Positions 25,866-63,319 of a stretch of 64,000 nt of DNA are shown here, piece after piece; position 1 is the stretch's first letter, and the number at the start of each line of letters is the position of its first letter. Origin of the DNA: an uncultured Fodinibius sp. Lineage in GTDB: Bacteria > Bacteroidota > Rhodothermia > Balneolales > Balneolaceae. Below the pieces are notes generated by a model. The model ran no database searches and was not told the origin of the DNA. It saw nothing but the letters and a program-made list of their open reading frames with translations. The position numbers were made by a program, and so were the translations under genes. The stretch spans positions 372,001-436,000 of the forward strand of contig CAJXMW010000001.1 of NCBI GenBank assembly GCA_913056235.1. Reading direction: 5' to 3'.

Positions 25866-25939
25866 GCGCCCGTAGCTCAACTGGATAGAGCGTCTGACTT
25901 CGGATCAGAAGGTTGGGAGTTCGAATCTTCCCGGGCGTA
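25866..25939 (+). tRNA. tRNA-Arg (anticodon TCG)
   Basis: All four arms fold: acceptor stem GCGCCCG with CGGGCGT (first pair G.U), D arm GCTC/GAGC, anticodon stem TCTGA/TCAGA with loop CTTCGGA (anticodon TCG), T arm GGGAG-TTCGAAT-CTTCC with GTTCGA. No CCA is encoded. An integrase begins 181 bases downstream, so this gene is probably the attachment site. The 3' end is intact. Confidence 0.97.
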
Positions 25940-25956
25940 CTGCTTGAAACATTCCA

Positions 25957-26120: not shown

Positions 26121-27290
26121 ATGGCCAGTCTAAGAAAGCGCAATAACTACTACTCTATCGTTTTTGCCACGCGGGTTGATGGCAAACTCATTCAGAAAAC
26201 CTATGCTCTTGGTACCAAGTACAAAAAGATAGCCGAACAAAAGAAATACCAATACGAAAAATTACATGAAGCTGGTGAGATAAATCCATTTTCGGATGAC
26301 TGGAATCTGCAAGAGTACGAAAAGATGCAGGAGTTGAAAGGTACTTCCGTAGTAAGTCCCATCTTAAACGAGCTTCAAAAGAAATTTTTAAGAGAAAAGA
26401 CAAATGTTACTGCAAAAACCAAGAGAACTTACAAGTACATCATACGTCAATTTATGGAAGGAGTTGGCTATACAATGCCCGTTACAAGAATTGATGCTGA
26501 TGATATTCGCGCGTTTTGTCTTCGAGATGACTTAGCCAATGCATCAAAAAAGAATTACCTAAAACACTTGAAAGTATTCTTTAACTGGCTGGTAGCGGAA
26601 GAATACATAGAAACCAATCCCTGCGATAAAATTGCCTTGCCAAAGGTTCGAGATAATCTCGTAGATAAGATTATTGAAGAAGATGATCTTGACTTAATTT
26701 TCAAAAAATTCCGAGAGTATCAGTTAAAACACAAAAAGTCTGGCAACATACACTCCACCGATCAGATGCAGCTTTGGTTTAAACCCCTGATCACACTGGC
26801 TTTTTATACTGGAATGAGGCGTAAAGAAATCATCCAATTGCGGTGGGAGCATATCAACCTCAAAGAAGGATTTATTAGAGTTACTGATACTAAAAATGGT
26901 TCAGAACGAACAATACCAATTTTTGAAACTTTATATTGGCGTTTAGTTGCCTGGAAAAAACTTATGGGCAATCCTAAAAAAGGATTAATTTTCCCGAGTC
27001 CAAAATCAACGCCTAATCGAGAAATTGCAATGACGGGGGATAATGTCTCTAAACGTTTTAAATTTTACGCCACAGAGGAAGCTAAACTGAAAGACACTGT
27101 AAATTTTCATGGCCTCAGACATTCTTGCGCAACCTTCATGCTACGCATCGGCTTCAATGTAATTGAAGTTAAAAATATGCTTGGCCATAAAAGTCTTGAA
27201 GTAACCAATCGCTATGTTCACTTGGTTGCGAAAGATCTAATGCGTTCTGCTAACCGAAATGGTAAAATGAACTATCTGAATGAAGCATAA
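26121..27290 (+). CDS. int: Tyrosine-type integrase
   Basis: 389 aa. An N-terminal arm-binding region (RKRNNYYSIVFATRVDGK) and a SAM-like core-binding domain (about 85-180, RTYKYIIRQFM, NWLVAEEYIETNPCDKI) precede the catalytic domain. Catalytic residues are visible: Arg about 233 (TGMRRKEI), His-x-x-Arg about 330 (HGLRHS), GHKSLEVTNRY with the nucleophile Tyr about 364. It is oriented away from the adjacent tRNA-Arg gene, the usual layout at an attL end. It overlaps the next gene by 11 bases. It would catalyse integration and excision of the element. Confidence 0.95.
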   Translation: MASLRKRNNYYSIVFATRVDGKLIQKTYALGTKYKKIAEQKKYQYEKLHEAGEINPFSDDWNLQEYEKMQELKGTSVVSPILNELQKKFLREKTNVTAKTKRTYKYIIRQFMEGVGYTMPVTRIDADDIRAFCLRDDLANASKKNYLKHLKVFFNWLVAEEYIETNPCDKIALPKVRDNLVDKIIEEDDLDLIFKKFREYQLKHKKSGNIHSTDQMQLWFKPLITLAFYTGMRRKEIIQLRWEHINLKEGFIRVTDTKNGSERTIPIFETLYWRLVAWKKLMGNPKKGLIFPSPKSTPNREIAMTGDNVSKRFKFYATEEAKLKDTVNFHGLRHSCATFMLRIGFNVIEVKNMLGHKSLEVTNRYVHLVAKDLMRSANRNGKMNYLNEA

Positions 27291-36893: not shown

Positions 36894-37481
36894 ATGGATA
36901 ATAAATTTATCGTTTTTGAAGGTCCCGATAACATTGGAAAAACAACATTGTGCAACAAAGTTTCAGAAATATTAACCCAAAAAAATAAAACCTGCGAAGT
37001 ACACTCCTTTCCTGGTAACCAAAAAGGGACATTAGGAAAATTTGTACATAACTTTCATCACAACCATCAAAAATATGGGGTTACCAATATTCCAAATATA
37101 AGCTTACAGCTTTTTCATGTTGCTGCACATTTTGATACCATTGAAAAGAATATTAAACCCGCTATTGCAAATAATGAGTACCTCTTGTTAGATCGTTATT
37201 GGTGGTCAACCTACGTGTATGGAAAGGTTAACAATATTAAGCAATCTCTATTAGATAAACTTCTCGAGATAGAAAAACTAGCCTGGAAAGAACTTTTGCC
37301 AGATACTATAGTATTATTGACTAATGACTCACCTTTTGAAGGAGCAGCAAGTGAGGAATGGCTCCAACTTCGAAAAGAATATCTAAAAATAGCTGAAAAT
37401 AGTACAACCCCAGAGGTGATCCAGTTTAGTAATGTTGGTGATATTGAAGACAATGCACAAAAACTAATTAAGCTATTTTAA
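36894..37481 (+). CDS. Thymidylate-kinase-like nucleotide kinase
   Basis: 195 aa. P-loop FEGPDNIGKTTL at residues 8-19, DRYWWSTYVYGK near 100 (the DRY-type nucleotide-binding motif), and a lid-like region thereafter. This is the dTMP kinase fold (about 200 aa). It is smaller and more divergent than the cellular Tmk. In phage-like base-modification operons such kinases phosphorylate modified dNMPs; here it follows the TS-like gene, so a two-step route to an unusual dNTP is plausible. Confidence 0.75.
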   Translation: MDNKFIVFEGPDNIGKTTLCNKVSEILTQKNKTCEVHSFPGNQKGTLGKFVHNFHHNHQKYGVTNIPNISLQLFHVAAHFDTIEKNIKPAIANNEYLLLDRYWWSTYVYGKVNNIKQSLLDKLLEIEKLAWKELLPDTIVLLTNDSPFEGAASEEWLQLRKEYLKIAENSTTPEVIQFSNVGDIEDNAQKLIKLF

Positions 37482-37495
37482 ATCCAAAATTATTC

Positions 37496-38563
37496 ATGTC
37501 AGATCTTCGACAAAATATTTTAGAGTTAAAAACAGATGATCATGCAACTAACAAAGGATTTTATTCGGAATTATTATCAGAACTAGCACCTGCTAAACCT
37601 ACCGAAGTTTATAATACATATTGGTATTTTGCGGCAGAACGGCAGAATGTTTTTTTCAACAAAATAAAGAAAAAACACCCGCCTTGGTCTAAAGATAGGA
37701 TACTCAGAAAATATAAGTTTACAAATGCATATCGAGCAGCCGACCGAGTAAGCCAGTACTTAATTCAAAATGTTATTTATGATGATGATCATGATTTAGA
37801 GGATTTATTTTTCAGAATTATTCTATTCAAAATTTTTAATAAGATTGAAACATGGGAATTACTAAAATCCAAATTAGGTGAAATAAATTACAAAACATTT
37901 GATTTCTCGACTTATAATGAAGTTTTAACTGAGGCACAAGATTCTGGTAAAGCTATCTATTCAGGTGCTTATATAATGGCATCTGGCAAGAGTGCATTTG
38001 GATATTCAAAAAAACATAGGAATCACCTTGCTTTAGTTTCTAAAATGATGGAAGAGAACCTACCATTAAAAATTGCTACTGCTGAATCAATGCAGGAGGC
38101 TTTCACATTGATTAAATCTTATCCATCGATCGGTGATTTTTTAGCATATCAATATGTAACAGATATTAACTATAGTAAAATTACTGATTTTTCAGAGACT
38201 GAATTCGTTGTACCAGGACCTGGAGCAATCGATGGCATTCATAAATGTTTCTCTGATTTAGGTGGGCTAAGTGAAACAGAGATCATTAAAATGATGTATG
38301 AAAGGCAAAGTCTTGAATTTGAAAGATTGGGCATAAAGTTTAAAACCTTATGGGGTAGGCCCCTTAAGCTGATAGATTGTCAAAATCTATTTTGTGAAGT
38401 GGATAAATATTCACGAGTAGCTCACCCAAATATAAAAGGGAAGAGTGATAGGAAAAGAATCAAACAAAAATACTCACCTACAAATAGATCTTTACACTAT
38501 TGGTTCCCACCGAAATGGGGAATAAATGATAGAGTGCAAAAATTTTATGAGGAGTTGAGTTAA
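37496..38563 (+). CDS. HMU-DNA-kinase-helical / aGPT-pyrophosphorylase-like protein
   Basis: 355 aa. Residues 40-95 carry the block YWYFAAERQNVFF, PPWSKDRIL and KFTNAYRAADRVSQYL, which I recognise from the glycosylase-fold helical proteins called 5-hmdU DNA kinase helical domain, or alpha-glutamyl/putrescinyl thymine pyrophosphorylase. Later segments are TDINYSKITDFSE and PGPGAIDGIHKCF. The family is predicted to act on hypermodified thymine or uracil bases in DNA. It closes the rightward operon; its stop is 14 bases from the end of a facing NTP-pyrophosphohydrolase gene. Confidence 0.72.
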   Translation: MSDLRQNILELKTDDHATNKGFYSELLSELAPAKPTEVYNTYWYFAAERQNVFFNKIKKKHPPWSKDRILRKYKFTNAYRAADRVSQYLIQNVIYDDDHDLEDLFFRIILFKIFNKIETWELLKSKLGEINYKTFDFSTYNEVLTEAQDSGKAIYSGAYIMASGKSAFGYSKKHRNHLALVSKMMEENLPLKIATAESMQEAFTLIKSYPSIGDFLAYQYVTDINYSKITDFSETEFVVPGPGAIDGIHKCFSDLGGLSETEIIKMMYERQSLEFERLGIKFKTLWGRPLKLIDCQNLFCEVDKYSRVAHPNIKGKSDRKRIKQKYSPTNRSLHYWFPPKWGINDRVQKFYEELS

Positions 38564-45894: not shown

Positions 45895-46122
45895 ATGCCG
45901 ACCATTACTCAACAACCCGTTACCAATCTGCGAGACAACATCTACGATACCCTGGATTGCCCCGGCATAACGACCATCTCACGCTCGGGGCAATTTACGG
46001 GCGTGCTGATCAGCCTGGGTGACCTCGACCCGAAATTAGCCAAACGCCTGCAAGATGTCACAACGCGCAACCCCGAGCACGGGCTACAGCTACTGCTCGA
46101 CTATATCACCTACCGCTCTTGA
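45895..46122 (+). CDS. Small protein, unknown
   Basis: 75 aa. ISRSGQFTGVLISLGDLDP in the middle and a helical C-terminus (GLQLLLDYITYR). The stop codon (TGA at 46120-46122) overlaps the TTG start of the next gene. No family is recognised. Its tight packing in the block supports its being real. Confidence 0.55.
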   Translation: MPTITQQPVTNLRDNIYDTLDCPGITTISRSGQFTGVLISLGDLDPKLAKRLQDVTTRNPEHGLQLLLDYITYRS

Positions 46123-47150
46123 GCAGCCACTATCCCCATATAATTCCTTCCCGACAAGCAGTCACTACTGACGATTCAGTGACGAGCAAAAAGGCGGCAG
46201 CACCCTCTCCCCAAAGAGGTGTTGCCGACCCTATTATTACCCACCGGCGACCATACCCTGGTATTGAAAGCGTCTTGGGACTAGCTTCCCAGCTGGTCAC
46301 CAAGTACACTGGGCGCGAGGACATCCGCGAGCTAGCGCTAAAAATCACTCGTAGGGTTCCCAGGAATATAAGCACAGGCCTGCCTGACCTACGAAATATA
46401 GATCAGATTGCAGGTGCCATTTACAAGTGGATGACGAGCAACATCAACTACGTCCGCGACCCCTGGAATATCGAACGCATTCAGTCCCCGGATGTCACCT
46501 TACGGCAAAAAGCCGGAGACTGCGACGACCACGCAATCCTGTCGGCGGCCCTGCTACAAAGCTTAGGGATCCAAACAGGTTTTCGCATTGTCAGCCGAAC
46601 GGGGCGAACCTACGACCATATTTATACCGTCCTTCGCTCCCCACAAGGATGGAAATCCTTTGATACTACCGTAGCTAAATATCCCGGATTTACTTTTGAC
46701 GAACGACTGATTAAAAAGTCCAAACACCTTCCCAACCGGATGCCGGAAGGATTAGGTATTGACCCGATTACCCTGACGGCTGCGGCCACGATGGCTCTGC
46801 AAACCGGCGTTACCATGAAGAGCATGTTTTCCAAATGGTTTGGCGCGAAGGATAAAGACGAGCGTATCCAACGCGGGCAATGGCGAGACTATCTGATGGC
46901 CCGAGGGGTCCGCTCGGATGTCATTTCGTTTTCTCAAAAGGATAACGCGATCCTCAGGAAGTACGCTCAGGTTATCCAAGAGTACGGCCAACCGGCCGTT
47001 GATCATCTAAACCGGTTCGGTAGTCTGGACAATAGTTTTTACGCGAATCAACAGAAAATCCAACACAAGAAATGGCTCCTCTACGGCGGACTCTCGGCCG
47101 GGCTTCTCACGCTGGGCGGGATGAGCTATTGGGCCCTAAACCACTCCTGA
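46119..47150 (+). CDS. Transglutaminase-like protein with C-terminal membrane anchor
   Basis: 343 aa. The start is a TTG overlapping the previous stop; no nearby ATG fits, and no strong ribosome-binding site is seen, so translation may be coupled. Residues about 85-205 form a transglutaminase-type core with Cys135 in KAGDCDDHAI, a His in TYDHIYTVL and an Asp in FDTTV. The C-terminus is one membrane span (WLLYGGLSAGLLTLGGMSYWAL). It may be a peptidoglycan or protein-processing enzyme of the virion membrane. It is one of nine anchored proteins in this block. Confidence 0.75.
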   Translation: MSSHYPHIIPSRQAVTTDDSVTSKKAAAPSPQRGVADPIITHRRPYPGIESVLGLASQLVTKYTGREDIRELALKITRRVPRNISTGLPDLRNIDQIAGAIYKWMTSNINYVRDPWNIERIQSPDVTLRQKAGDCDDHAILSAALLQSLGIQTGFRIVSRTGRTYDHIYTVLRSPQGWKSFDTTVAKYPGFTFDERLIKKSKHLPNRMPEGLGIDPITLTAAATMALQTGVTMKSMFSKWFGAKDKDERIQRGQWRDYLMARGVRSDVISFSQKDNAILRKYAQVIQEYGQPAVDHLNRFGSLDNSFYANQQKIQHKKWLLYGGLSAGLLTLGGMSYWALNHS

Positions 47151-49673: not shown

Positions 49674-50933
49674 ATGGAATCTATGACTGCCCAGCAGCTT
49701 GCTAAACTTAATATCAAAGGCATTAAAATTGCCCCACCCTATGGAAGACTTCTGGGCGAACCCGAGAAAAATGCCGTGATTTTTATTTGGGGCGAAAAAG
49801 GAGCCGGTAAATCTACCATGAGTCTGGGACTAGCAGACGCGCTGGCCGCCCACGGACGCATCGAGTACATTCCCGCCGAGGAGCACTTTGGTAAAACCCT
49901 GGTCGATCGCGTCAAGCGCCTGGGAGCTACCCACCGGAACCTGAATTTTACCAAATGGAAATCGATTCAGTCCCTCAAAGAAGTTCTGCTTAAGAATCAG
50001 TCCTTCGCCTGTATCCTAGATTCCATTTCGGTGATTGATGCCAACGCGAAAGAAACAGTGGAGTTGGCCCAGTGGTGCCGCGAAAACGGGATTATGTTCG
50101 TCATGGTCTCGCATGCCACCAAAGACGGCCAGTACAAAGGCAACACCAGTATCGCCCACGAGTGTGATATCGAGATCAAGGTCACCAAAGAAGGCGGGGC
50201 CGAAACCGAGAAAAACCGATACCGAGAACTTACGTCCATTGCCGTACCATTTACAGCGGATGATCGACAGGTACCCACCAACACATCAGTAGAAGATAAC
50301 TCCGACGACAACCGAGAAAATCCTGTGGATACGCCTTTTAAAATTACGCTAAAGGAGCTCGACAAACTTCACAAAATCCGATCCTGGAAACGCATCAACT
50401 CCATGTTTGGAAGCAAGATGCCGTGTTACGCCCCGAAGCATTCCGGGGAATCTGAAAATGCCCACCTGTCCATCCGGTACACGGCCGATTACCCGAAAAA
50501 GCGGTATATCATGGACTTACTTCTGGACGGGCACTTGGAGTACCAAGCCTGCACAGAAGGCAAAGGAGGTGGGCTAAAAGCGTGCTGGAAAAAGTTAGTC
50601 AACAAGTATGGAGATTTGGAGATCCGAATTTACAAGCAGGACCACGCCAAAGTCGTGCTGGGCGCCAAAGAGTACAAGCGCCAGGAACGTGCGCTGGGCA
50701 AACAGGACATGAAATCCACTCCGGCCAGCTCACCAGCCCCAAAGACCAAGAAGAAACCAGTGACTGAGCCAAAGCCCGCTTCTACCAAGCAGCAAGAAAA
50801 AACTTCGTCGAACAAACAACCAACGACGAAGGATATTTCATCTGGCCAAAAACCAGAGCAGCAGATAGACCTCAAAGCCGCCAAACAAAGCCAGGCTAAA
50901 CTGGATGCTTTCCTAACCAAAGTTTTAGGCTAA
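49674..50933 (+). CDS. RecA-superfamily ATPase (RadA-like core)
   Basis: 419 aa from ATG 49674, 1 base after the previous stop. Residues 30-200 hold the RecA/RadA-like core: Walker A WGEKGAGKSTM near 40, the EEHFG helix, a Walker B-like ACILDSISVID near 115, and the FVMVSHATKDGQYKGNTSIAHECD segment near 145, the K-x-G-x-x-G-N signature of RadA-like enzymes. The C-terminal 130 residues are Lys/Pro/Thr-rich and disordered. In this setting it could be a recombination or DNA-packaging ATPase; it does not look like an FtsK/HerA-type packaging motor. Confidence 0.75.
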   Translation: MESMTAQQLAKLNIKGIKIAPPYGRLLGEPEKNAVIFIWGEKGAGKSTMSLGLADALAAHGRIEYIPAEEHFGKTLVDRVKRLGATHRNLNFTKWKSIQSLKEVLLKNQSFACILDSISVIDANAKETVELAQWCRENGIMFVMVSHATKDGQYKGNTSIAHECDIEIKVTKEGGAETEKNRYRELTSIAVPFTADDRQVPTNTSVEDNSDDNRENPVDTPFKITLKELDKLHKIRSWKRINSMFGSKMPCYAPKHSGESENAHLSIRYTADYPKKRYIMDLLLDGHLEYQACTEGKGGGLKACWKKLVNKYGDLEIRIYKQDHAKVVLGAKEYKRQERALGKQDMKSTPASSPAPKTKKKPVTEPKPASTKQQEKTSSNKQPTTKDISSGQKPEQQIDLKAAKQSQAKLDAFLTKVLG

Positions 50934-50938
50934 CCCCC

Positions 50939-53900
50939 ATGCGAGACAACCCAACTGTAACTCCTTTTGAAGATATTACAACCGATGACTATCCCGGTAT
51001 TTTCGGGGATTTTGACGGCGACGGCATTCCCAACGTCGACGATCCCAACCCACAGAGGGCTGGTGACACCGATACCGTCGAAGAGACCAAACTCACTGAC
51101 GAAATCAAGCAACTAATAGATCTGCGCGGTGATTATCAGCAAGCTCTCGATGAAGTAATCGGGAAGCTCCAAGCCCTGCAACCAGCCGCCACGATTAAGG
51201 GACGCGTGAAGTCTCCGTACTCAGTCATCAACAAACTACGTCGCAAACGGATTAAGACAGAAATTAAAACAACCAGTCCTGGCGAAAATTACATCCAAGG
51301 GCTGACCGATATGGCCGGATGCATGATTGTTTTGCCGGGTCAAGCTGTGCTGGATCGGGTAGTCCAGCAAATAGCAACAGGGGTAATCGGAGAAGTGTTT
51401 GAGCATGAAGATAAATACACCAATCCGGTCGGCGGTTATCGGGCCCACCACTTTATTGTAATGGCTGGTCAAGGGGGAGACATCCCAGTAGAGGTTCAGG
51501 TAAAGACCAAGCGCATGGCCCAAATAGCCAGCGCAGCTCACACCCCGTACAAAAATGGCACCCTTAATATCCAGCGAATGAACCAGCTCTCTGATCTGGC
51601 CTGGCAAGCTGACCAAGGTGGTAAGCAGGCAGCCACTATTATCGACAACCTTCTTGAAGAACCAAGAAAGCTGGCTGAAGAATTATCTTTCCGAGAAAAT
51701 CCTTCCAGCAAGCTGCAACAGCTCCAGGATTCCTTCACCGAAACCGTCAAGAAACTGGCCCTGGCATTTTCGCTCGATAAGTTTCCCAAGGAACACCGAA
51801 AAGAGGCCTTAAAGCTTTTTCGTAGCCACGGGCAAGTCATCGGCGTCGATTTCGACGAGGTATTTGCTGCAGCCCAAAAGACTACGAAAACTCCGAAAAA
51901 AGAAGACGACCGATCATATGGGCCCGCCGGGGATCGCGCGGGAGAAGCGAAATATGGAAGCGATTTTTCTGGCCTCCAGCTTGCAAATTTTGCTCCTATA
52001 AAACTCTCCAAATCCGAGCGACGACGGGCCAACGAAGCGGCCTTGGCGGTCTTGGAAAAAGAGGATCGGGCGATAACCGAATCCGACCTGGACACCCTTC
52101 GCTGGTACACCGGGGCGGGCGGACTTGGATACGGAGAGAATCGCACCGGCACCGAGCGCGGGCTGCTCAACGAGCATTATACCTCCTACCCCTTGATACA
52201 GCTGATCTGGGATAAACTCCAAGCTATGGGCGTGGACGGGGGCAACATATTAGAGCCCGGGGCGGGCATTGGCAACTTTGCGGGATTTCTGCCCAATACT
52301 GATAGCTACCGTATGCTGATGGTTGAACGGTCTGCGGTAAGCGCGCGCATCGCCAGACTTTTATATCCTAATCAGTTAGTTAAACACCAAAACTTTGCTG
52401 ATACCGATCTATCGCTATATAATCTTACCGGCGCCATAGGCAATGTCCCCTTTGGCGATATAAAGATCCATACCCAGCGCGACCCGCTGGCCCACCTGAA
52501 TCCCCGTATTCACGACTACTTTATTCTAAAGTCCCTGGACGCCCTCCAACCGGGCGGTTTTATGGCCGTCATCACCTCGGTCGGTACGATGGACAAAAAG
52601 GATCCGGCCATCCGACAGGCCATGGTCCAGCACGCCCGATTTGTAGGCGCATACCGGTTGCCCTCGACTGCGTTTAAAGATAATGCCGATACGCTGGTTA
52701 CGACCGATCTTATTTTGTTTCAGAAGTATCCTGACGTTGACGGGGAAACCCACCCCGATATTAACAGTGAATTAAACCAGTTGTTTGCTTACGAGGAACT
52801 GGCCGTCAGCATCACTGAACATAACGGAGAATCCTACGGTGCTTACTACAATCCCTACTTCCAAAAGTATCCCGAGCAAGTATTAGGCGAACATATCCAG
52901 GGCCACGACATGCAGTTTTTGACACGCATGGGCGTAAAAGGCCAAGTGGACCAAGCGATGATTACCCGCGTGCTGGAAGATAATCTGGAGTTCCCCTATC
53001 CGCTTCCGGAGTCAGCACCGTTTTACCGGATCCCCGATGAAGGAGTGCGACTGAATACCGGCCGGGAGTACCATGCTGGGAACATCATTTTCCACGAAGA
53101 CAAATTCTATGAAAAACAGCGCCACTATTTTAAGCCTCTTGCCGTAGGCGGCAAGGAGAAGGCGGGAGAAGGACTTCGGGAGAAAATAGCCTCGGCCTGC
53201 CAGATGCTCGACACCTACGATGATTTCGTGACCGCACTGGCCCAGGATACGGGGCAAAAAGAGCCGCTCCGCGAGGAATTCAAGGGGCTGCTTCAGACCC
53301 ATATCGACACCTACGGCATCCCCGATGAAGACGAAGACATCCGCCAGGTATTCCGCTACGACAACCGCCTGTATAAACTCACGACCTTTGTAAAGCGCGA
53401 TCCCATTAGCGGGGAGCTAGTCTACGCGGATATTATTGATGCCGATTCGATGTTCAACAACAACTACGTGCCCGCGGTATCGGACTCCGACGACCTGGCC
53501 GAAATTGCCATGTACGGTCGCTCTATAGGCGAAGACCTTACGCTGGATTTCTACCAGTCCACCTACAAAGGAGGCACAGCCAGCCGGAATGAACTCACTA
53601 AAGCAATCGAGAATCACCCTGACTTCTTCTACAATCCGGAGTCCAATGGTTACGAGTTCCGCTACCAGTACCTGGCCGGTAATGTCCGCCGCAAACTGGA
53701 AGTAGCCGAAGACAATCAGTTGGAGAAAAACATCGAGGCGCTCCGGACAGTCCTCCCAGAATGGATTGATGCCTACTCGATTACCGTGGATCCCCGCCAC
53801 ATTTTCACCTATCTGCCCACGAAAGTACTTACTCAATGGATAAAAGATGAACTCGGCTATCGGGACGTCCACATCGGACTCGTCAAAGATAAAGCCGACC

Positions 53901-56900
53901 TAGGCAATCGTTTCTACATGAAACTCCGCAAAGGCGGGCGATATATTAAAAATGGTGAAGAGACGGCTGACGACTGGAACCAGGGTTGGGGCGAGACACC
54001 CTTCAGCAAAATAATTAACAACTATATCCAGGATTCCAGTTTCCCGCTGGTCTTCTACGATGAGGACGACAACGTTCTCCCGAACATGACCCTAAAACGA
54101 GCCGAGCAAACCGGCCAGCAGGCACTGATCGAGCGAGCCCGCGCCAAACAGCGCACCCACAACGATCAGATGCTCACGCGCGTGCCTCAAAAGTTCAACC
54201 AATGGATACGCACCAAAGCGCCCGGCGAGGTTCGCGAGCTCATCGAGCAGGCGTACAACCACGAATACAACGCCCATATTAATCCCCAGTTTGACGGAAA
54301 CACGCTCCGCGTGCGCGGTATGTCCGACACCTTCTACGGGGTCAAGGATTTTACCGTGTACAAACACAACCGGGCGGTCGCCGAAAAGCTGGTTTGGAAC
54401 GGGCGGGGTGCTAATTGCCACGATGTGGGCGCTGGTAAGACGCTCTCCTCAATTATTACTTCCCAGGTTCTGTTGCAGCAGGGCGCCTGCCGAAAACCCA
54501 TGTTTGTAGTGCCAGGTAAAGTCCAGGAGAAATGGGTGGAAGAATACTCCATGCTATTCCCCGATGCGAAGATCCTAAATATGAAGATGGCAGGGGAAGA
54601 CCGCCATAAGGAGCTAACCATGGCCCAACTCTACAACTGGGATGCGATCTTTATTGCTGACCACGCCTTCAAGAGCCTGCCGCTCTCTCCATCGGTGCAG
54701 CAGGATATGTACAGCGAGCGCGTAGAGTATTTTGATCAGATGATTGATAGCTTTGACGAGCTCATCGAAGAAGATGACGCGCTAAGCTCCACGGCCAAAA
54801 AGTCGATGGTGACGCGGCTGGAGAAAATGAAGGAGGAATGGGATGCGAAGCTCCGTAATGTGTCCAATGCCAAGCGACTCGACACCGATATCTTTTTTGA
54901 TGAACTCGGCGTGGACGCCCTCTTCTTTGATGAGGCCCACTTCTACAAAAATGCCCTCGGCAGCGCGAAAGCCGTTAAGCTGGGCATCGCAGCTAATAAG
55001 CCTTCCCAACGAGCCGAAGACGCCCTTCAAAAAACGAAGTGGCTGTTTTCGAAAATAGGTTTTAAAAACGTTTTTGTCCTGACTGCTACCCCAGTCGTCA
55101 ATTCTCCGGCCGAAGTATGGCACATGCTCAACCTCTGTGCCCCGGACCTGTTGGAGAAATACCAAATTGCCAACCTCGACAACTTCATCAACCAATTCGT
55201 CCGCGAGGAGGAGAAGATCGTCAAAAAGACCAACGGTGAATATCGCACCGAGCGCGTGGTGGCCGGGTATTACAACCTGCCGGAGATGCGGGCCATCATC
55301 GATGAGGTCATGGACATCAAAAGTTATGATCAGCTGATGGGGTTCTACCAGAAGTATCCCGATTATCTTAAAGACGTGTCCGGCAACGTAGTCACCGACG
55401 AGCAAGGAGAGCCAAAAGCCCTAAAGCCGAAATTCAAGCGACCCGAAGCCGAAACCAAACAGCAGGTCATCGAACCCAGCGAGATTCACAAATTGTTATT
55501 CGATGATATTATCCTCCGGGCCGACAGTATCCTGGACTGCATGCGCCAGCGCGGATGCCAGACCAAAGATAATTTCCTGGTGATCACTGGCGATGGCAGC
55601 AAAATTGCGACCGACCTTCGCGTCTATGACAACAGTTTTAAGGGCGTCGATGGCAAATTCCTGAAGCTGGGTGCCCTAGTCGATAACGTAGCGGAAAGTT
55701 ACGCTACCCGCGAAAATCCCGCCCCAAACAGAATACCGGAAAGCATTTATGGCGACTTCTTTTCGAAGAGTATCCATCACATGCGAGAAAATCCGAACCT
55801 ATACAAAGGCCGGTCCCGACACAAACTTATTAAAGAGCTCAAATCCCTTGGCCACTTTGAGGAGGTTGCCCAAGAAATTCAGGCCACCGAAGGTGACCTT
55901 CACGAAGTCCCGGTAGGCAAGCAATTCTTGCTTAAGAAGATTGAGAAACAACGCGAAAAACACTCCGATGGCAGCGACCAGATGGAGGAAACTTTCGACC
56001 GGGCGATGATGATTGTCGAGGCGCTATATAGCGACCGGGAGAATCCAGCGCCTCCCACCTTCCGCAACCAGATTATCTTCTGCGACTGGATCTCCGTGGA
56101 AGGCCAAAAAGGGGGAAGTTATCATCAGCTGATCAAAGAGGAACTGTCGAAAACTAGGATCCCAAAAGATCAAATCGCCATTATCAACGGCTCTATCATT
56201 GGCACCGACAGTAAGGGCAATGATTACTTTATTTCATCCTCTGATGATAAAGAAGCCCTCAAAAAACAGGTCCAGGATGATTTCAACCTAGGCAAATACC
56301 GCGTGCTTATCGGCAACCAGTCTATCGCCGAAGGGATGAACCTGCAGAAATGGACCACCGATCTGCATCACATGGATGTGCCGTACACCCCCTCGCAGAT
56401 CCAGCAGCGCAACGGGCGTGGGCTCCGCCAGGGCAACCAGCACGGCAAGGTCAATATTCATTTTTACCTGATGAAGGATTCCTTCGATCAGTACCGCCTG
56501 GAGCTGGTCAGCAAGAAACAAAGCTGGATTGATGAGCTATTTTTCGGAGACGGCCGGGAAACCTCGGCTGATTCTGAGGGAGAGTCCCTGGAGTACGAAC
56601 AGATGGTCGCCGCCACAAACTCCGACCCCAGAGTCAAAGAGTTCTTCCAGTCCAAGGCCCAAACCAAAGTGCTAAAGGCTCGCATCGAGTCGCTGCTCAG
56701 CGAATCCCAGCGCCTGGAATCCTCGCTCGCGCAGGCCAGTCAGGATGTAACCAAACGCTCTGAGCGCATGGAGGCGGCTATCGGTCGCGAACAAGCCCTT
56801 ATTGATTCGGAGCTGCCGAACTCGGGGGCAGAAGCCCTAAATAACGGACTCATTCGCATCGGCTGGCTAGACTACAGCGGAGAAATTGGATCCATTGAAA

Positions 56901-58204
56901 ACAACCTGTCTTCCGACGGCAAACGCGTGCCGCGTTTCCGCCACGAGCTGGCCCTCGAAGTCCCAAAAAACAACGCCAACGGGCGGGTGCTGTTTAACCT
57001 TATTCCTGACCCCAACGCGCCCAACCGAAGTTTCTATAACAAGATCAAATGGAGCTCGATCAAGCAGATGGCGGGCCAGCAGCTAACCGCAGCCTTCGGC
57101 TGGTCTATGGACGAACCTGTCCAATCCGGGCGAAGTCTGGCGGGCAACAAAGGCAATATTATTGCCGATGAGTCCGACTTTTACCATCATTACCAGGTGG
57201 ATATCGATGCTGAGAAACGGAAAACCAATCCGGACGGCACCGAAGTCACTTATGACCAAATCAAGCAGCGAATCGGCATGTACAAAACCCAACAGTGGCT
57301 GCCGATCATTAAAGCTAAATTGGCCGCGCTCTTCCTGGCCTTAGAAAAAGGATGGCAACAGTCCGCCCAAGCCCGCATCCAGCAGATCACCGCCGAGCTG
57401 GACCGCTCGAAGAAAACCCTGAAGGAATTGGAAATTACCCACGAGCAAACGCGGAAAGAATTAGAGCAAGCTCAGGCCAACCTGAAAACCAACCAGGACA
57501 CCGTAACCAAGCTCCAGGATGTGGTCAACGAGTTGGTAAAAACCAAATTTTCCGACCGATCGGAGCTCTACGAAGAGCTCAACCGCATTGCGCCCACCTA
57601 TGGCGTAAAAGGAACCGTGCGCGTCCGGGAGGTTGGCATCTATCGCGACAGTACCACGCCAGCAGATGATATACGTCCCAACCGTTCAGACAGCCAGAAA
57701 AAAGAACAAAACTTAGAAAGTCTTCCCACGCCCCTGAAAACATTATATGGCGAACCCCTGGTATATGCGGGAACCGTAGGCGAGCTGGAATTCATCGATG
57801 CCAAAGGTTTCATGCAGCGCATCCTTTCGGATGATCAGGATATGGCGATGATTATTGACGGGGAGGGAACGACATTGTTCGCTTTCCCCACCCATCGCAT
57901 GAAGCTGCTCAAAGGCGCGGTTGACAGCGACGAAGCCACCCAAATGTACGAGGAGTTTCACCATTTCCCTCCGGATGAGTACGACTATGAGCTGTTTCCA
58001 CCAGCTGACGCCGAATTAGTTTCGGTCGGCCACGCCGAACGTATTATGTACGGCAGCGACAAGGTTATATATCCGGGCGACAAGAAAGGTGAGAACCACC
58101 AGTACTATCACTACTTCGACGACGGCAAGCGACCCATCTTCCAGTACGGAGACGTGTATATCATTACCAACCTGAACATCGACGGACGCGGTATTCTCAA
58201 CTGA
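50939..58204 (+). CDS. Giant polyvalent protein: RelA/SpoT-like, N6-methyltransferase and SNF2-type helicase
   Basis: 2421 aa. Order: a Ca-binding-like start (DFDGDGIPNVDD, about 22-33); a RelA/SpoT-type domain at about 85-203 (KGRVKSPYSVINKL, TDMAGCMIV, GGYRAHHF, VEVQVKTKRM); an N6-adenine methyltransferase at about 430-580 (EPGAGIGNF, GNVPFGD); an SF2/SNF2 helicase with DVGAGKT (1162), FDEAHF (about 1330), LTATP (about 1382) and QRNGRGLRQG (about 1822); a coiled coil (about 2140-2210); and a C-terminal globular part. Methylase-helicase fusions such as P1 DarB are antirestriction proteins carried in virions. The RelA/SpoT domain keeps Asp and Glu at active-site positions, so it may be catalytic. 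The gene lies among virion-module genes. Confidence 0.85.
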   Translation: MRDNPTVTPFEDITTDDYPGIFGDFDGDGIPNVDDPNPQRAGDTDTVEETKLTDEIKQLIDLRGDYQQALDEVIGKLQALQPAATIKGRVKSPYSVINKLRRKRIKTEIKTTSPGENYIQGLTDMAGCMIVLPGQAVLDRVVQQIATGVIGEVFEHEDKYTNPVGGYRAHHFIVMAGQGGDIPVEVQVKTKRMAQIASAAHTPYKNGTLNIQRMNQLSDLAWQADQGGKQAATIIDNLLEEPRKLAEELSFRENPSSKLQQLQDSFTETVKKLALAFSLDKFPKEHRKEALKLFRSHGQVIGVDFDEVFAAAQKTTKTPKKEDDRSYGPAGDRAGEAKYGSDFSGLQLANFAPIKLSKSERRRANEAALAVLEKEDRAITESDLDTLRWYTGAGGLGYGENRTGTERGLLNEHYTSYPLIQLIWDKLQAMGVDGGNILEPGAGIGNFAGFLPNTDSYRMLMVERSAVSARIARLLYPNQLVKHQNFADTDLSLYNLTGAIGNVPFGDIKIHTQRDPLAHLNPRIHDYFILKSLDALQPGGFMAVITSVGTMDKKDPAIRQAMVQHARFVGAYRLPSTAFKDNADTLVTTDLILFQKYPDVDGETHPDINSELNQLFAYEELAVSITEHNGESYGAYYNPYFQKYPEQVLGEHIQGHDMQFLTRMGVKGQVDQAMITRVLEDNLEFPYPLPESAPFYRIPDEGVRLNTGREYHAGNIIFHEDKFYEKQRHYFKPLAVGGKEKAGEGLREKIASACQMLDTYDDFVTALAQDTGQKEPLREEFKGLLQTHIDTYGIPDEDEDIRQVFRYDNRLYKLTTFVKRDPISGELVYADIIDADSMFNNNYVPAVSDSDDLAEIAMYGRSIGEDLTLDFYQSTYKGGTASRNELTKAIENHPDFFYNPESNGYEFRYQYLAGNVRRKLEVAEDNQLEKNIEALRTVLPEWIDAYSITVDPRHIFTYLPTKVLTQWIKDELGYRDVHIGLVKDKADLGNRFYMKLRKGGRYIKNGEETADDWNQGWGETPFSKIINNYIQDSSFPLVFYDEDDNVLPNMTLKRAEQTGQQALIERARAKQRTHNDQMLTRVPQKFNQWIRTKAPGEVRELIEQAYNHEYNAHINPQFDGNTLRVRGMSDTFYGVKDFTVYKHNRAVAEKLVWNGRGANCHDVGAGKTLSSIITSQVLLQQGACRKPMFVVPGKVQEKWVEEYSMLFPDAKILNMKMAGEDRHKELTMAQLYNWDAIFIADHAFKSLPLSPSVQQDMYSERVEYFDQMIDSFDELIEEDDALSSTAKKSMVTRLEKMKEEWDAKLRNVSNAKRLDTDIFFDELGVDALFFDEAHFYKNALGSAKAVKLGIAANKPSQRAEDALQKTKWLFSKIGFKNVFVLTATPVVNSPAEVWHMLNLCAPDLLEKYQIANLDNFINQFVREEEKIVKKTNGEYRTERVVAGYYNLPEMRAIIDEVMDIKSYDQLMGFYQKYPDYLKDVSGNVVTDEQGEPKALKPKFKRPEAETKQQVIEPSEIHKLLFDDIILRADSILDCMRQRGCQTKDNFLVITGDGSKIATDLRVYDNSFKGVDGKFLKLGALVDNVAESYATRENPAPNRIPESIYGDFFSKSIHHMRENPNLYKGRSRHKLIKELKSLGHFEEVAQEIQATEGDLHEVPVGKQFLLKKIEKQREKHSDGSDQMEETFDRAMMIVEALYSDRENPAPPTFRNQIIFCDWISVEGQKGGSYHQLIKEELSKTRIPKDQIAIINGSIIGTDSKGNDYFISSSDDKEALKKQVQDDFNLGKYRVLIGNQSIAEGMNLQKWTTDLHHMDVPYTPSQIQQRNGRGLRQGNQHGKVNIHFYLMKDSFDQYRLELVSKKQSWIDELFFGDGRETSADSEGESLEYEQMVAATNSDPRVKEFFQSKAQTKVLKARIESLLSESQRLESSLAQASQDVTKRSERMEAAIGREQALIDSELPNSGAEALNNGLIRIGWLDYSGEIGSIENNLSSDGKRVPRFRHELALEVPKNNANGRVLFNLIPDPNAPNRSFYNKIKWSSIKQMAGQQLTAAFGWSMDEPVQSGRSLAGNKGNIIADESDFYHHYQVDIDAEKRKTNPDGTEVTYDQIKQRIGMYKTQQWLPIIKAKLAALFLALEKGWQQSAQARIQQITAELDRSKKTLKELEITHEQTRKELEQAQANLKTNQDTVTKLQDVVNELVKTKFSDRSELYEELNRIAPTYGVKGTVRVREVGIYRDSTTPADDIRPNRSDSQKKEQNLESLPTPLKTLYGEPLVYAGTVGELEFIDAKGFMQRILSDDQDMAMIIDGEGTTLFAFPTHRMKLLKGAVDSDEATQMYEEFHHFPPDEYDYELFPPADAELVSVGHAERIMYGSDKVIYPGDKKGENHQYYHYFDDGKRPIFQYGDVYIITNLNIDGRGILN

Positions 58205-58224: not shown

Positions 58225-58746
58225 ATGACCCAACGAGTATTTGCAAAAAATCCAACCCACTTGGATGTAATCGAAAACCCAACAACCCCAAAACCTGCAA
58301 CTATGGCAAAACAACTAACAACCGAAAAAGCGGTAAGCGAATTTAAGCAACAGCTTATCACTGCCGGATACATTGTGGGCGGCCAGGCAATTGGTGCGCA
58401 GCTGAATGGGCTGGCCGTTCCCGCTATTTTAGGCGGCACCTCGGCTACCGTCCAGCAAGCGGCCCGCGTCGGCCTGCCCCTCACCTTAGGCATGGTCTTC
58501 ACCATGTTTTCCAAAAACTCACACCTTCGCGGTCTCGCAATGGGACTAGGCGTACAAGGCGTCATGGAACTGATCAAGTTCATTATGCCCGACTGGACCC
58601 CCTCGCAAGGACTCATGGAAGGAAGTGAATATCTGTGGAACGAGGAGGACCTACCGGCTACCGTTGCGCCCCAGATTCCAATGCCCGACGGAACAGGACA
58701 TGTTTCTCAACTTGAAACCGCATTTGAGGAGACCGTGGAAGTCTAA
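58225..58746 (+). CDS. Hydrophobic membrane protein, unknown
   Basis: 173 aa. An N-terminal polar part with two Asn-Pro motifs (KNPTHL, ENPTTP) is followed by several hydrophobic stretches (YIVGGQAIGAQLNGLAVPAILG, LPLTLGMVFTMF, MGLGVQGVMELIKFIM) and an acidic tail. It probably spans the membrane two to three times. No family is recognised. It precedes the candidate capsid genes. Confidence 0.55.
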   Translation: MTQRVFAKNPTHLDVIENPTTPKPATMAKQLTTEKAVSEFKQQLITAGYIVGGQAIGAQLNGLAVPAILGGTSATVQQAARVGLPLTLGMVFTMFSKNSHLRGLAMGLGVQGVMELIKFIMPDWTPSQGLMEGSEYLWNEEDLPATVAPQIPMPDGTGHVSQLETAFEETVEV

Positions 58747-58853
58747 CTACGAGTTTCTCTACTCATAGCTCACGCTGAACAGGGGACTGCTTACGGGAAT
58801 AAGCTAACGGCCTAATGGCCCTACCTAAAAACCCCTATAAACATTTACGACCT

Positions 58854-59474
58854 ATGAGTACCCAAATTTCAAAAAAAGCAATTGTACCCGCCAGCGCCCG
58901 CATCAAAACCTATTTTGATACGCAGAAAGTAGAACAAAACGGGGCGGTTCTAAATTTCTTTCCGCCGAATTCCACCCGGAAAATTACCCGCAACAATTAC
59001 GTGGGCAATCCTTTTCCCGGTGAACTGAAACGACGTATTCTGGCGTTGTCGTTCGAAGTGACCAAGCAGTTTATCGAGGATGACGAGGCTAATGGTATCG
59101 ACGCCCAGGCCATTGTCAACTCCCTAAAAGATGCCGGTGTGATCTTGCAGGCTGACAACGACAATAAGGAGTTCCTGCGCGTGCCCATCGCCAAGCACTC
59201 CAACTTTTCGGGCACCGATATCCAAACAGTAGCCGGAACGGCCAACACAGTCGATGCTCCTGTCATATACAAAGATGTTGCCTGCCTGCGATCGGCCGCC
59301 GAATACCGCTTGGCGGATCCTTTTGATCTTGCCGTCAACCAGACCCTCTCGCTCTCGGTTCATTTCGAGGATTCCTCGGTATTCCCGAGTGAGGAGAACT
59401 GGACAACTTCCGCCCAAGGCCTGCTCTACCTGCAAGCCAGCATTGTCGTCGCTGAAATGAAACCCGAGAAGTAA
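58854..59474 (+). CDS. Candidate small major capsid protein (single jelly roll)
   Basis: 206 aa from ATG 58854 (MSTQISKK); an ATG at 58815 would add 13 residues (with KNPYKHLRP) and cannot be excluded. The sequence is beta-strand-rich throughout (VLNFFPPNSTRKI, QTLSLSVHFEDSSVFP, LLYLQASIVVAEM) with no signal or membrane segment. The FPPNSTRKITRNNYVGNPFPG start and the LSVHFEDSSVFPS hairpin resemble strand pairs of jelly-roll capsid proteins. The gene sits next to a second all-beta protein, a pairing known from phages with two single-jelly-roll capsid proteins. Assignment is inference. Confidence 0.5.
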   Translation: MSTQISKKAIVPASARIKTYFDTQKVEQNGAVLNFFPPNSTRKITRNNYVGNPFPGELKRRILALSFEVTKQFIEDDEANGIDAQAIVNSLKDAGVILQADNDNKEFLRVPIAKHSNFSGTDIQTVAGTANTVDAPVIYKDVACLRSAAEYRLADPFDLAVNQTLSLSVHFEDSSVFPSEENWTTSAQGLLYLQASIVVAEMKPEK

Positions 59475-59546
59475 CCCCACCCAACCGGCAGCGGCTCCTG
59501 GCCGTTGCCGGCTTTATTAATTGCTCAAACGCTTGCCTACATCATT

Positions 59547-60326
59547 ATGAAAATAGTAAAGAATTTTATTCCTCCAACCGAGTCTTCGCCTTTTAATCCG
59601 GCCAAATCGATTGACATTCCTGCCGGTGCCAGCGGCCACCTTTCGATGAATGGCATGGGCGGAGAAAGTTTCGGCGTCCGAAAAATACTACCCTACAGCT
59701 CCCACATGGACAAGGTACTCGTTTCCGCTCGGTTAAATGAAGACTTGTACCTGTTTCGCGACCTGCAGATTTCCGCAGTACACCGACTTTTCCAACAGAT
59801 CGATGGACTACTTGCCCCATTCATCATACAAAAAAGTAATAGCTTGGTATTCGAGCTGACCAATACCCACAACGCAGCTCAGACCGTAAATATCCAACTC
59901 ATCGGTTATGATCACTATAGCATGGCCAAACTGTTAAGCATTTACTCCGACATTGGAAGCCCAATGCCTCAGCCGCGCTTTCTCTACGGGCAGGCTACCA
60001 TAAATCCGGGCGCTGTCAATATCGATATGGGCGTCAAAGCGAAAAGCACTGACGTGGAAGCCCGCCGATTGGCCATGACCAGCGACCGTCCGGGCGATAT
60101 CACCGCTAGCCTGAAGATCTATAATACGACTATCCGCAATGAGGTTTATCTGGAGCAACTTAACGACGAGTTCGGCCAGTTCTATGCCAACGTCCCATTT
60201 ATCATTGGCTCGAATATGCCGTTCCAGGTCTATGCCACTAATAAAGGTTCTTCCCAGGCTAACGTGAGTTTTCTGTGTGAAGCTTATGTGGTTGAAACAT
60301 CCGACGCTAATCCACTGGAGGTATAG
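59547..60326 (+). CDS. Candidate large major capsid protein
   Basis: 259 aa from ATG 59547 (MKIVKNFIPPTE), as the longer frame from 59505 starts with an unsupported hydrophobic leader. All-beta composition without signal or membrane segment: SLVFELTNTHNAAQTVNIQL, ASLKIYNTTIRNEVYL, PFQVYATNKGSSQANVSFL are typical exposed strands and loops. Its length and beta content fit a single or double jelly roll of tailless phages. No HK97-type motif was noticed. It lies 72 bases after the other candidate. Confidence 0.5.
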   Translation: MKIVKNFIPPTESSPFNPAKSIDIPAGASGHLSMNGMGGESFGVRKILPYSSHMDKVLVSARLNEDLYLFRDLQISAVHRLFQQIDGLLAPFIIQKSNSLVFELTNTHNAAQTVNIQLIGYDHYSMAKLLSIYSDIGSPMPQPRFLYGQATINPGAVNIDMGVKAKSTDVEARRLAMTSDRPGDITASLKIYNTTIRNEVYLEQLNDEFGQFYANVPFIIGSNMPFQVYATNKGSSQANVSFLCEAYVVETSDANPLEV

Positions 60327-61307: not shown

Positions 61308-62759
61308 ATGAATACCATCAATCAAACTCTTTCTATTGGCACCCCGAAATCAGGGATGGATCTGTTTTGCAACGTCAGCATCGACGGGAAACACCTGTTT
61401 CGGATGCACTGCGAGTCCTTCGTAGGCAACCTGCTGCGCGACGTCCAGGGGATGATGCACGGCGGTAAAACGGATCGGCTGATTAGCCCCGGTGACGATT
61501 ACGTGCAGGATGGCAAAATAACGTCTATGCAAATTGTTAATGGGGCCCTAGAAATCTACAGCCAATACTATCTTCAGTATATATTTAGTGGTATGCACGG
61601 CGTAAACCCCAATGGGGAAAAGCCCGTTTGGGTACACATCTGGGGATGTAGCTCGGTCCCGCAAATCAACGGCACCTGGCAGGTCGAAAGCACCCATGGC
61701 GACTATTATATCCGCCTGAAAGACGGGCCAACCAATTTTGACCCGGCAACTTACGTGGCCGACCAGGCGAAGGTTATTGCCAAGCACTATCATCCCATTA
61801 CGACTACTGAAAGTTACTGCCCACCTTTCCGCGTCATTTTGCCCACCATTGGGCAAGGCAGCCGGCCGGTTAGCATCTCCGATGTGGGCCTGCACAATCC
61901 CATTGACGCTCTGCTGGCTCGGGGAGCTCGATCGGTTTCAGGCGTGGTCACCGATCAGCAAAAAAGCGTCTTTACCGTTTCAGCCCCGTTTACCAACGGT
62001 TCCGGGGGCGATCTGGCTATCACCGAAATGGGCCTCATGACCCACATTAATGTGGGCCGCCATGAAATTAACACCATTGCCACCCTGTATGCCCGCGATG
62101 TGCTACCGGCAGCCCTGAACCTGCCCAATGGTAAAACGCTGACGTTAGACTACGAGTGCCGGTTTGAGCTTGAAAACTTTAACCAGGATACAGACCTCAA
62201 CGGTTCCAACGGCGGGTTCACCGCCGAATTTGTAGGCGCCTTGCGTCGACAAGCGGTCGAAAATACCAATACCAACTGGCGGGACCTGATGTGTATCGCT
62301 GGCGGAGGGACTTCGATGACCTCGCTAGAGCGCCGGGCCTCGGAGATCAACAAAGGGTGGCATCTGGGACTCCGATTGGGCCAAAGTAACAAATTCGTTT
62401 CCATGACGGACACGGACCTGTCCCCCGATGCTACCCAAGAAACGGCCTACAGCCTCGGAGGCATCAGCCATGGCAGCGGAGACGGCCAGCTCATCCATCA
62501 CGGGATGATTATCGATGACCAAGTAACCATTGATGAGGCAAATAATGAAGCCTACTTCAACCTAGATCGCGTATTTGAAAACCGGGGTGCTACCGACATC
62601 ACCATTAAAGAAGTCGGGATATACGCCAACCGGGGGAATGATTATGATGAATGGGTGCCCAAGCTGATAGCTCGCCAGGCCCTGGCCCCGGCCGACCAGT
62701 TTACCATTATGGCCGGACAAATGCGCAAGGTGGGCTACAAGATCAAGATGGTGGTCTAA
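61308..62759 (+). CDS. Large structural or spike-like protein
   Basis: 483 aa from ATG 61308; the longer frame from 61269 overlaps the previous gene and is not used. Beta-rich throughout with repeating NGTWQVESTHGDYYI-like and FTVSAPFTNGSGGDLAITEMGLMTHI segments, the latter resembling parts of tail-spike or receptor-binding proteins. A related ATDITIKEVGIYA motif recurs near residue 435, so the protein may contain two similar domains (MGLMTH / EVGIYA). The stop codon overlaps the lysozyme start (TAATG). Confidence 0.58.
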   Translation: MNTINQTLSIGTPKSGMDLFCNVSIDGKHLFRMHCESFVGNLLRDVQGMMHGGKTDRLISPGDDYVQDGKITSMQIVNGALEIYSQYYLQYIFSGMHGVNPNGEKPVWVHIWGCSSVPQINGTWQVESTHGDYYIRLKDGPTNFDPATYVADQAKVIAKHYHPITTTESYCPPFRVILPTIGQGSRPVSISDVGLHNPIDALLARGARSVSGVVTDQQKSVFTVSAPFTNGSGGDLAITEMGLMTHINVGRHEINTIATLYARDVLPAALNLPNGKTLTLDYECRFELENFNQDTDLNGSNGGFTAEFVGALRRQAVENTNTNWRDLMCIAGGGTSMTSLERRASEINKGWHLGLRLGQSNKFVSMTDTDLSPDATQETAYSLGGISHGSGDGQLIHHGMIIDDQVTIDEANNEAYFNLDRVFENRGATDITIKEVGIYANRGNDYDEWVPKLIARQALAPADQFTIMAGQMRKVGYKIKMVV

Positions 62760-63319
62760 TGGTCAGCTCATTTTCGGTATCAGCAGAACTTACGTACATC
62801 CGGATCCGTGGCCTGATGGGACATTTCACCGAGGCATCCAAACGGTATGGGATTCCCCTTGCCCTGTTGCTGGCAGTCGCCTCCCGCGAGAGTCGCATGG
62901 GACTGGCCCTTTCGGCCGACGGCACCGGTGATCACGGTAACGGGATAGGAATCATGCAGATTGACCGGCGATATCATCCCGGTTTTACTGGGAGCCACAG
63001 CCCCTTTAATCACCGGGCTAACATTGACTATGGCACCGAGTATCTCGCTAAACTGCTCAGACAATTCAATGGAAATACCACCCGGGCCGTAGCCGCCTAT
63101 AATGCTGGTCCCAATAAAGTGCAGACCGCCATATACGCGGGCTTGCCCCCTGATTCCGTCACCACCGGTGGGGATTACAGCCAGGATGTGATGGGGCGAA
63201 AACAGCTAATTGACCAGCTACTCGGCCTCTCCAAGGCAACCAGTTTGTCCATATACGTCCTACCTATGGCCGCTATAGCATTTACAACCTATAACTATAT
63301 GACCTCCGAAAGCCCATGA
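62759..63319 (+). CDS. Lytic transglycosylase (SLT/lysozyme-like) with C-terminal anchor
   Basis: 186 aa from ATG 62759. Residues 20-150 are a goose-type/SLT lysozyme-like domain: AVASRESRMG with catalytic Glu about 43, GNGIGIMQIDRR, TRAVAAYNAGPNKVQ, in family order. The C-terminal hydrophobic segment (IYVLPMAAIAFTTYNYM) is an anchor, so the enzyme likely sits in a membrane and opens the peptidoglycan during infection. It overlaps the previous stop and the next start by single codons. In a lysis-only role, an anchored form would be unusual. Confidence 0.85.
   Translation: MVSSFSVSAELTYIRIRGLMGHFTEASKRYGIPLALLLAVASRESRMGLALSADGTGDHGNGIGIMQIDRRYHPGFTGSHSPFNHRANIDYGTEYLAKLLRQFNGNTTRAVAAYNAGPNKVQTAIYAGLPPDSVTTGGDYSQDVMGRKQLIDQLLGLSKATSLSIYVLPMAAIAFTTYNYMTSESP

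Follow-up and report, generated by a model that had tools for sequence, protein, structure and literature searches.

Why would a phage carry a RelA/SpoT synthetase module in the same polypeptide as a DNA methylase and a helicase? The question is raised by one gene (positions 50939 to 58204) in a 64,000-nucleotide stretch of DNA from an uncultured Fodinibius sp., which is called the window here. The gene encodes a giant protein of 2421 residues and sits in an integrated prophage of about 43.7 kb in a Balneolaceae (Fodinibius-type) genome. The answer we favour, with a probability of about 0.5, is that the product is a polyvalent protein delivered by the virion, in which the methylase-helicase part would protect the phage DNA and the RelA module would make a (p)ppGpp-like alarmone.

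The synthetase module can be recognised by sequence, by predicted structure and by conservation. A hidden Markov model search with PF04607 (RelA_SpoT) matched residues 88-207 (E 1.8e-13; 51.2 bits against a curated Pfam cut-off of 27), and the characteristic motifs KGRVKSPYSVINKL (residues 87-100), DMAGCMIV (124-131), GGYRAHH (165-171) and VEVQVKT (184-190) are in place, with the catalytic D124 and E185 present. Two marks of long RelA/SpoT homologues, the HD hydrolase and the TGS/ACT domains, were not found in the 2421-residue chain by Pfam. An AlphaFold model of the module, built from 14 homologues, has a core with predicted local distance difference test scores (pLDDT) of about 85-95 (mean 71 including the disordered ends), and its residues 53-230 match RelP in the PDB with Z 16.1 (root-mean-square deviation 2.9 Å over 166 aligned residues), followed by RelQ (15.8), CapRel (13.9), Tas1 (11.6) and FaRel2 (9.3); a sequence-profile search of the PDB likewise gave RelP (6ewz, E 2e-9) as the best match. 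An earlier sequence-only reading of this DNA had described a RelA/SpoT pattern with catalytic Asp and Glu kept, had proposed this domain search and a structure prediction as checks, and had named the absence of PF04607 similarity, or the loss of Asp or Glu in fused homologues, as findings that would speak against it; both checks came out in its favour and neither of those findings was made. Furthermore, none of the fused homologues examined departs from R89, K91, S95, K99, D124, Y167, H171 and E185 or from the distal H201, Y204 and K205, and no metal, phosphate or acceptor residue changes across an identity range of 46-80%. Pairwise ratios of nonsynonymous to synonymous substitution rates (dN/dS), from which pairs with saturated dS were left out, are about 0.05-0.17 for the module and about 0.02-0.06 for the helicase; the module is therefore kept by purifying selection, which acts on it more loosely than on the helicase.

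The same reading had placed a methylase and an SNF2-type helicase in this chain, and both were located. The DarB-like antirestriction family phrog_10089 spans residues 407-1946 (E 1e-167), the helicase motifs GAGKT, DEAH and QRNGRGLRQGN fall within 1162-1168, within 1329-1334 and at 1823-1833, respectively, and Pfam recognises SNF2-rel (4e-8) and Helicase_C (6e-6). The methylase-helicase dyad is thus shared with DarB of phage P1, whereas the RelA module, the DxDxDG loop that precedes it, the C-terminal domain and the tailless phage context (see below) set the present protein apart. Full-length homologues of the RelA-methylase-helicase fusion were found in many Balneolaceae genomes, so the fusion is not an artefact of assembly. 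With several unrelated effector-type domains in one chain encoded among phage late genes, the protein belongs with the polyvalent proteins. The first tblastn matches, to tailed phages and plasmids, aligned essentially with the methylase-helicase part alone. We also considered the defence systems DISARM (DrmD), BREX and Dpd and rejected them: their matches lie mostly in the C-terminal part of the helicase and reach 67 bits against an NCBIfam cut-off of 610.

Which phage, then, encodes this protein? The analogy with DarB implied a tailed, P1-type phage, and this part of the earlier reading did not hold. The late genes of the prophage are instead collinear with those of Salisaeta icosahedral phage 1 (SSIP-1), whose particle is tailless, contains a membrane and has T = 49 (PMC6260650, PMC6356626): homologues of gp34, gp40, gp43, gp44, gp45/46 and gp54 follow one another in order, with weaker matches for gp33, gp35, gp36 and gp48. 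The giant protein itself is the counterpart of gp43 (E 9e-10 in the comparison of open reading frames), and in both the ATPase is followed by the giant protein, gp44 and the capsid homologues, in that order, which places the fusion in a phage late operon. The genome sizes are also close (43,788 bp for SSIP-1, NC_017983, and about 43.7 kb for the prophage). By its gene content, the prophage is an SSIP-1-like tailless phage, and homology suggests that this phage, which we know from its genes, probably makes an icosahedral membrane-containing particle. The SSIP-1 genome 'hardly shares any similarity' with others (PMC6356626), and the prophages provide relatives of this near-orphan in culturable Balneolaceae hosts.

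Delivery in the virion is suggested above all by the C-terminal end of the protein. The SSIP-1 record annotates gp34, gp40, gp43, gp44, gp45, gp46 and gp48 as structural proteins, and gp43 has the same C-terminal domain as the giant protein (E 4e-11) and ends RGILN like the rest of the family. The entry together with DNA that the earlier reading had in mind thereby gains indirect support. A profile of this domain found 25 places in 20 of the 244 genomes of the class, and the relatives from the genome scan (Fodinibius/Aliifodinibius, Rhodohalobacter, Balneola and Gracilimonas) all belong to the Balneolaceae; a scan of IMG/VR with the domain gave a single match, a contig of 43,788 bp, which is SSIP-1's own length. 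Most carriers are RelA-type chains of 2410-2525 residues, and the same domain also follows other cargo, namely a RadA-like ATPase with ddrB-ParB (1020 residues), an ATPase with ArdC, MPTase and ddrB-ParB (1409 and 1456 residues), and a methylase-helicase without RelA (1885 residues). Since the domain stays constant while the cargo changes, and since the one studied member of the family is annotated as structural, we propose from its distribution that it may serve in packaging or anchoring. This suggests that the giant structural protein of SSIP-1 is a carrier of exchangeable cargo.

The events that we envisage would run as follows. The C-terminal domain would anchor or sort the giant protein into the virion, and the protein would then enter a new host together with the phage DNA. 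There, the methylase-helicase part would protect the incoming DNA, as DarB does, while the RelA module would act as a pyrophosphate transferase, with a nucleoside triphosphate as donor and a purine nucleotide as acceptor. Its product would most likely be a (p)ppGpp-like alarmone, which in the first minutes would turn host transcription and translation to the advantage of the phage. DNA protection and nucleotide signalling could thus both act before viral translation begins. Packaging, injection, enzymatic activity, product and effect are, for the giant protein itself, predictions from sequence and from analogy. The host genome encodes a single long Rel (a separate frame of 763 residues) and no small synthetase; a long Rel of this kind usually degrades (p)ppGpp as well, so that a short alarmone pulse would be expected. 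If the module works after entry, the virus would deliver a ready-made stress-signal enzyme at infection, and the particle of a virus of salt-loving bacteria could bring in an alarmone-type enzyme alongside its DNA.

Several observations weigh against this reading. The C-terminal domain is modelled with confidence (pLDDT 90.5), yet a PDB search with its fold gave nothing better than chance (best Z 3.6), and so no function can be read from it. The link to gp43 is likewise partial: while the two proteins share late-operon position, size (2319 residues in gp43), a methylase and the C-terminal domain with its ERGILN end, gp43 has ParB_N instead, with neither a RelA module nor a Pfam match for an SNF2 helicase, so that virion status would transfer by domain and position only. 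The most specific point concerns the active site. In FaRel2, the donor adenine is sandwiched between R64 and R95 (PMC11782079). R64 corresponds to R89 here and R95 to M129 by alignment, a register also given by RelP, with R95 placed by its distance to the catalytic Asp rather than through a FaRel2 sequence in the alignment. Every fused homologue examined has Met at this site; Arg is kept in Rel-, RelP- and RelQ-type references, and Thr or Ser occurs in the viral and plasmid relatives described below. With the adenine-stacking Arg lost, the substrate of the module cannot simply be read from RelP, and specificity for the donor or the acceptor may differ, although the change does not undo the argument that the module is active. 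The module has the fold (Z 15.8-16.1) and the catalytic residues of RelP and RelQ, whereas the Met, the position inside a 2421-residue chain and a viral clade signature are not; as the replaced Arg is a feature of the substrate site, sequence and model make the module a divergent member of the synthetase fold family and not 'a RelP/RelQ'. A (p)ppGpp-like product appears most likely and tRNA modification less so.

The alternative that survives best takes the Arg replacement further: the module may make another product, for example (p)ppApp or, with an unusual donor, some pyrophosphorylated nucleotide, as a viral family with a substrate of its own. A search of IMG/VR with the DxDxDG loop and the RelA module as query gave seven viral contigs, six of which (L099-L104) have both the module and a GDFDxDGxxNxDD loop; scans with the full protein of 2421 residues or with its N-terminal region found no relative in IMG/VR. 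The 84-kb plasmid of an archaeal metagenome-assembled genome (LC711081; L093) also has both features. In a tree, the fused proteins, the six IMG/VR proteins and the plasmid protein separate from six Rel/RelP/RelQ-type references with support 100/98, in a reference set that is small and holds neither toxSAS nor Tas1, and with the plasmid protein on a very long branch, so that we regard this apparent viral RelA clade as provisional. Its signature comprises the DxDxDG loop, the change of Arg to Met, Thr or Ser, and the replacements of Arg by Lys in ExQxRT and of Ser by Ala in GYxSxH. These shared substitutions speak for a distinct product, but Met can still stack on adenine and specificity may be unchanged, and we consider a distinct product possible but doubtful. 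By sequence, the family recurs in polyvalent settings, since one viral contig (L104) has the module in one chain with ART-PolyVal and, in another (L103), the gene adjoining the RelA gene matches DarB-like and DNA-methyltransferase families. A broader version would have a virus-specific RelA clade carried in the virions of unrelated viruses (here SSIP-1-like tailless phages, uncultivated viruses with the ART-PolyVal fusion, and the plasmid of the archaeal metagenome-assembled genome), with a product other than (p)ppGpp and with the SSIP-1-like C-terminal domain loading exchangeable cargo; this we offer as a tentative idea of low confidence.

Further members of this wider group differ in make-up. 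The plasmid protein (L093, 5629-8640; 1003 residues) has the DxDxDG loop, a RelA module that scores under the Pfam cut-off and, seen by eye, a JAB-like HTHP...PSATD motif. Two viral proteins of about 1600 residues (L101, 5107-9885; L102, 4462-9306) hold the module as one of numerous segments with a repeated xKGG motif between them, which is likewise a candidate joint signal. A viral protein of 850 residues (L105, 5479-8031), without the DxDxDG loop, keeps the Arg in its RelA module and has many KxNP/GNP motifs.

A toxSAS-type tRNA pyrophosphokinase, which after injection would modify the 3'-CCA ends of tRNA and stop host translation, is an improbable identity for the module. The fold does match CapRel and, more weakly, FaRel2, and the FaRel2 core residues R, K, S, K, D, Y and E are kept (PMC11782079). 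On the other hand, the best matches in sequence and fold are the (p)ppGpp synthetases RelP and RelQ, the adenine-stacking R95 is not retained, and the N-terminal helix 52-80 is acidic (6 D/E, 3 K/R), whereas for the acceptor stem FaRel2 relies on K28/R29 there; an early block of translation would presumably harm the phage too. The toxSAS enzymes (FaRel2, CapRel) and Tas1 share the fold family and, on the reading favoured here, a toxic or effector use of the domain, but no antitoxin-like gene was recognised here, the neighbours being a RadA-like ATPase and the gp44 homologue, although an antitoxin of unfamiliar type could escape recognition.

It is rather unlikely that the giant protein, instead of being injected, acts in the lysogen or the late-infected cell, for instance with superinfecting phages or the timing of lysis as its target: its late-operon position implies expression in the producing cell, and bacteria do use RelA-type enzymes (CapRel, toxSAS) against phages, but its counterpart gp43 is annotated as structural, and a constant C-terminal domain with changing cargo fits packaging better. 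Least probable of all is a catalytically dead relic or mere nucleotide-binding sensor in a DarB-like protein, as the replaced Arg and an evolution faster than that of the helicase might suggest, given the invariant catalytic residues and the low dN/dS reported above.

A virion-delivered alarmone synthetase linked to DNA protection thus remains the reading that we prefer, and part of it is already known. RelA/SpoT domains in phage polyvalent proteins were predicted by Iyer et al. in 2017, who also proposed alarmone synthesis as a weapon (PMC5512222). Our protein is like theirs in being a multidomain phage protein that combines RelA/SpoT with antirestriction-type domains, and differs in belonging to an SSIP-1-like tailless phage of Balneolaceae and in having the methylase-helicase and an SSIP-1-type C-terminal domain in the chain. 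What is new is this context, the connection with a protein annotated as structural, a C-terminal domain that stays constant while its cargo is exchanged, and the provisional viral RelA clade with its DxDxDG loop and lost donor-adenine Arg. If our reading is true, the 2017 prediction becomes directly testable in one induced lysogen. The features of the giant gene and of the prophage are collected in Table 1.

Table 1. Features of the giant gene and of the surrounding prophage, in window positions
Feature	Position	Strand	Remarks
tRNA-Arg (tcg)	25866..25940	+	prophage edge, attachment site
Tyrosine integrase	26121..27290	+	PF00589, E 1e-30; adjoins the tRNA-Arg attachment site
Transglutaminase-like protein	46119..47150	+	homologue of SSIP-1 structural gp34, E 2e-32
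RadA/Sms-like ATPase	49677..50933	+	directly upstream of the giant gene; homologue of SSIP-1 gp40 (annotated structural ATPase), E 2e-29
Polyvalent protein gene	50939..58204	+	one open frame, 2421 aa: DxDxDG loop, RelA/SpoT, methylase, SNF2-type helicase, coiled coil, C-terminal domain
Calcium-loop-like DxDxDG motif, residues 23-38	51005..51052	+	GDFDGDGIPNVDDPNP; precedes the RelA module; common to viral and plasmid relatives
RelA/SpoT synthetase module	51083..51640	+	residues 49-234 by fold; PF04607 over 88-207
RENP linker motif, residues 252-255	51692..51703	+	separates the RelA module from the helices that follow
DNA methylase region, about residues 346-770	51974..53248	+	LEPGAGIGNF 438-447, GNVPFGD 501-507
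SNF2-type helicase, about residues 1162-1935	54422..56743	+	GAGKT, DEAH, QRNGRGLRQGN
C-terminal domain, residues 2265-2421	57731..58201	+	ends RGILN; common to SSIP-1 gp43 and sister polyvalent proteins of other make-up
SSIP-1 gp44 (structural) homologue	58225..58746	+	E 6e-9
Probable capsid protein	58815..59474	+	homologue of SSIP-1 structural gp45 (E 4e-19) and gp46 (E 9e-7)
Lytic transglycosylase-like protein	62651..63319	+	homologue of SSIP-1 gp54, E 8e-35
tRNA-Arg (tcg), second copy	69623-69697 from window start (L025 11624-11698)		87% identical, 43.7 kb downstream

A short motif, RENP, recurs at domain joints in the late proteins. Five copies occur in 25 late prophage proteins against 0.035 expected from shuffles (about 140-fold), and none in 23 host proteins. 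Four lie in the giant protein, at residues 252, 1591, 1616 and 1700 (window 51692, 55709, 55784 and 56036), and another at the joint of the two ATPase parts (gene 49677-50933); a variant, RDNP, stands at residues 2-5 of the giant protein (window 50942-50953). In SSIP-1 (L036), gp41 has RENP twice, and gp43 has it immediately ahead of its C-terminal domain. The copy at residue 252 coincides exactly with a low-pLDDT linker, and RENP may be a cleavage/processing or docking motif of this virus group. We do not claim residue 252 as a proteolytic site; this copy is degenerate in Balneola-type proteins (RFNS, RANP, RSNP).

Elements related to the prophage were seen elsewhere. In sister elements (L026, in the G000:C5:247700 region, L027 and L079), the giant protein is a different one, with a RadA-like ATPase and ddrB-ParB, and in two cases also ArdC and MPTase-PolyVal, ahead of the same C-terminal domain. 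A copy in an assembly labelled Pleurocapsales cyanobacterium (L049, JADEXJ010000181) lies on an 11.5-kb contig with coverage 2.1, groups with Rhodohalobacter-type prophages and is probably contamination. The Fodinibius genome itself has a second SSIP-1-like prophage at about 1.26-1.29 Mb of G000:C1 (L002, L022, L023), which repeats the late block with 79% DNA identity over 16.8 kb. Within the prophage of the window, the second capsid-region protein (59505-60326) has no match in phage records, and the gene at 36894-38563 carries a 5-hmdU DNA kinase helical domain (PF18723, E 3e-114) and adjoins a thymidylate-kinase-like gene; the prophage DNA may undergo thymine hypermodification.
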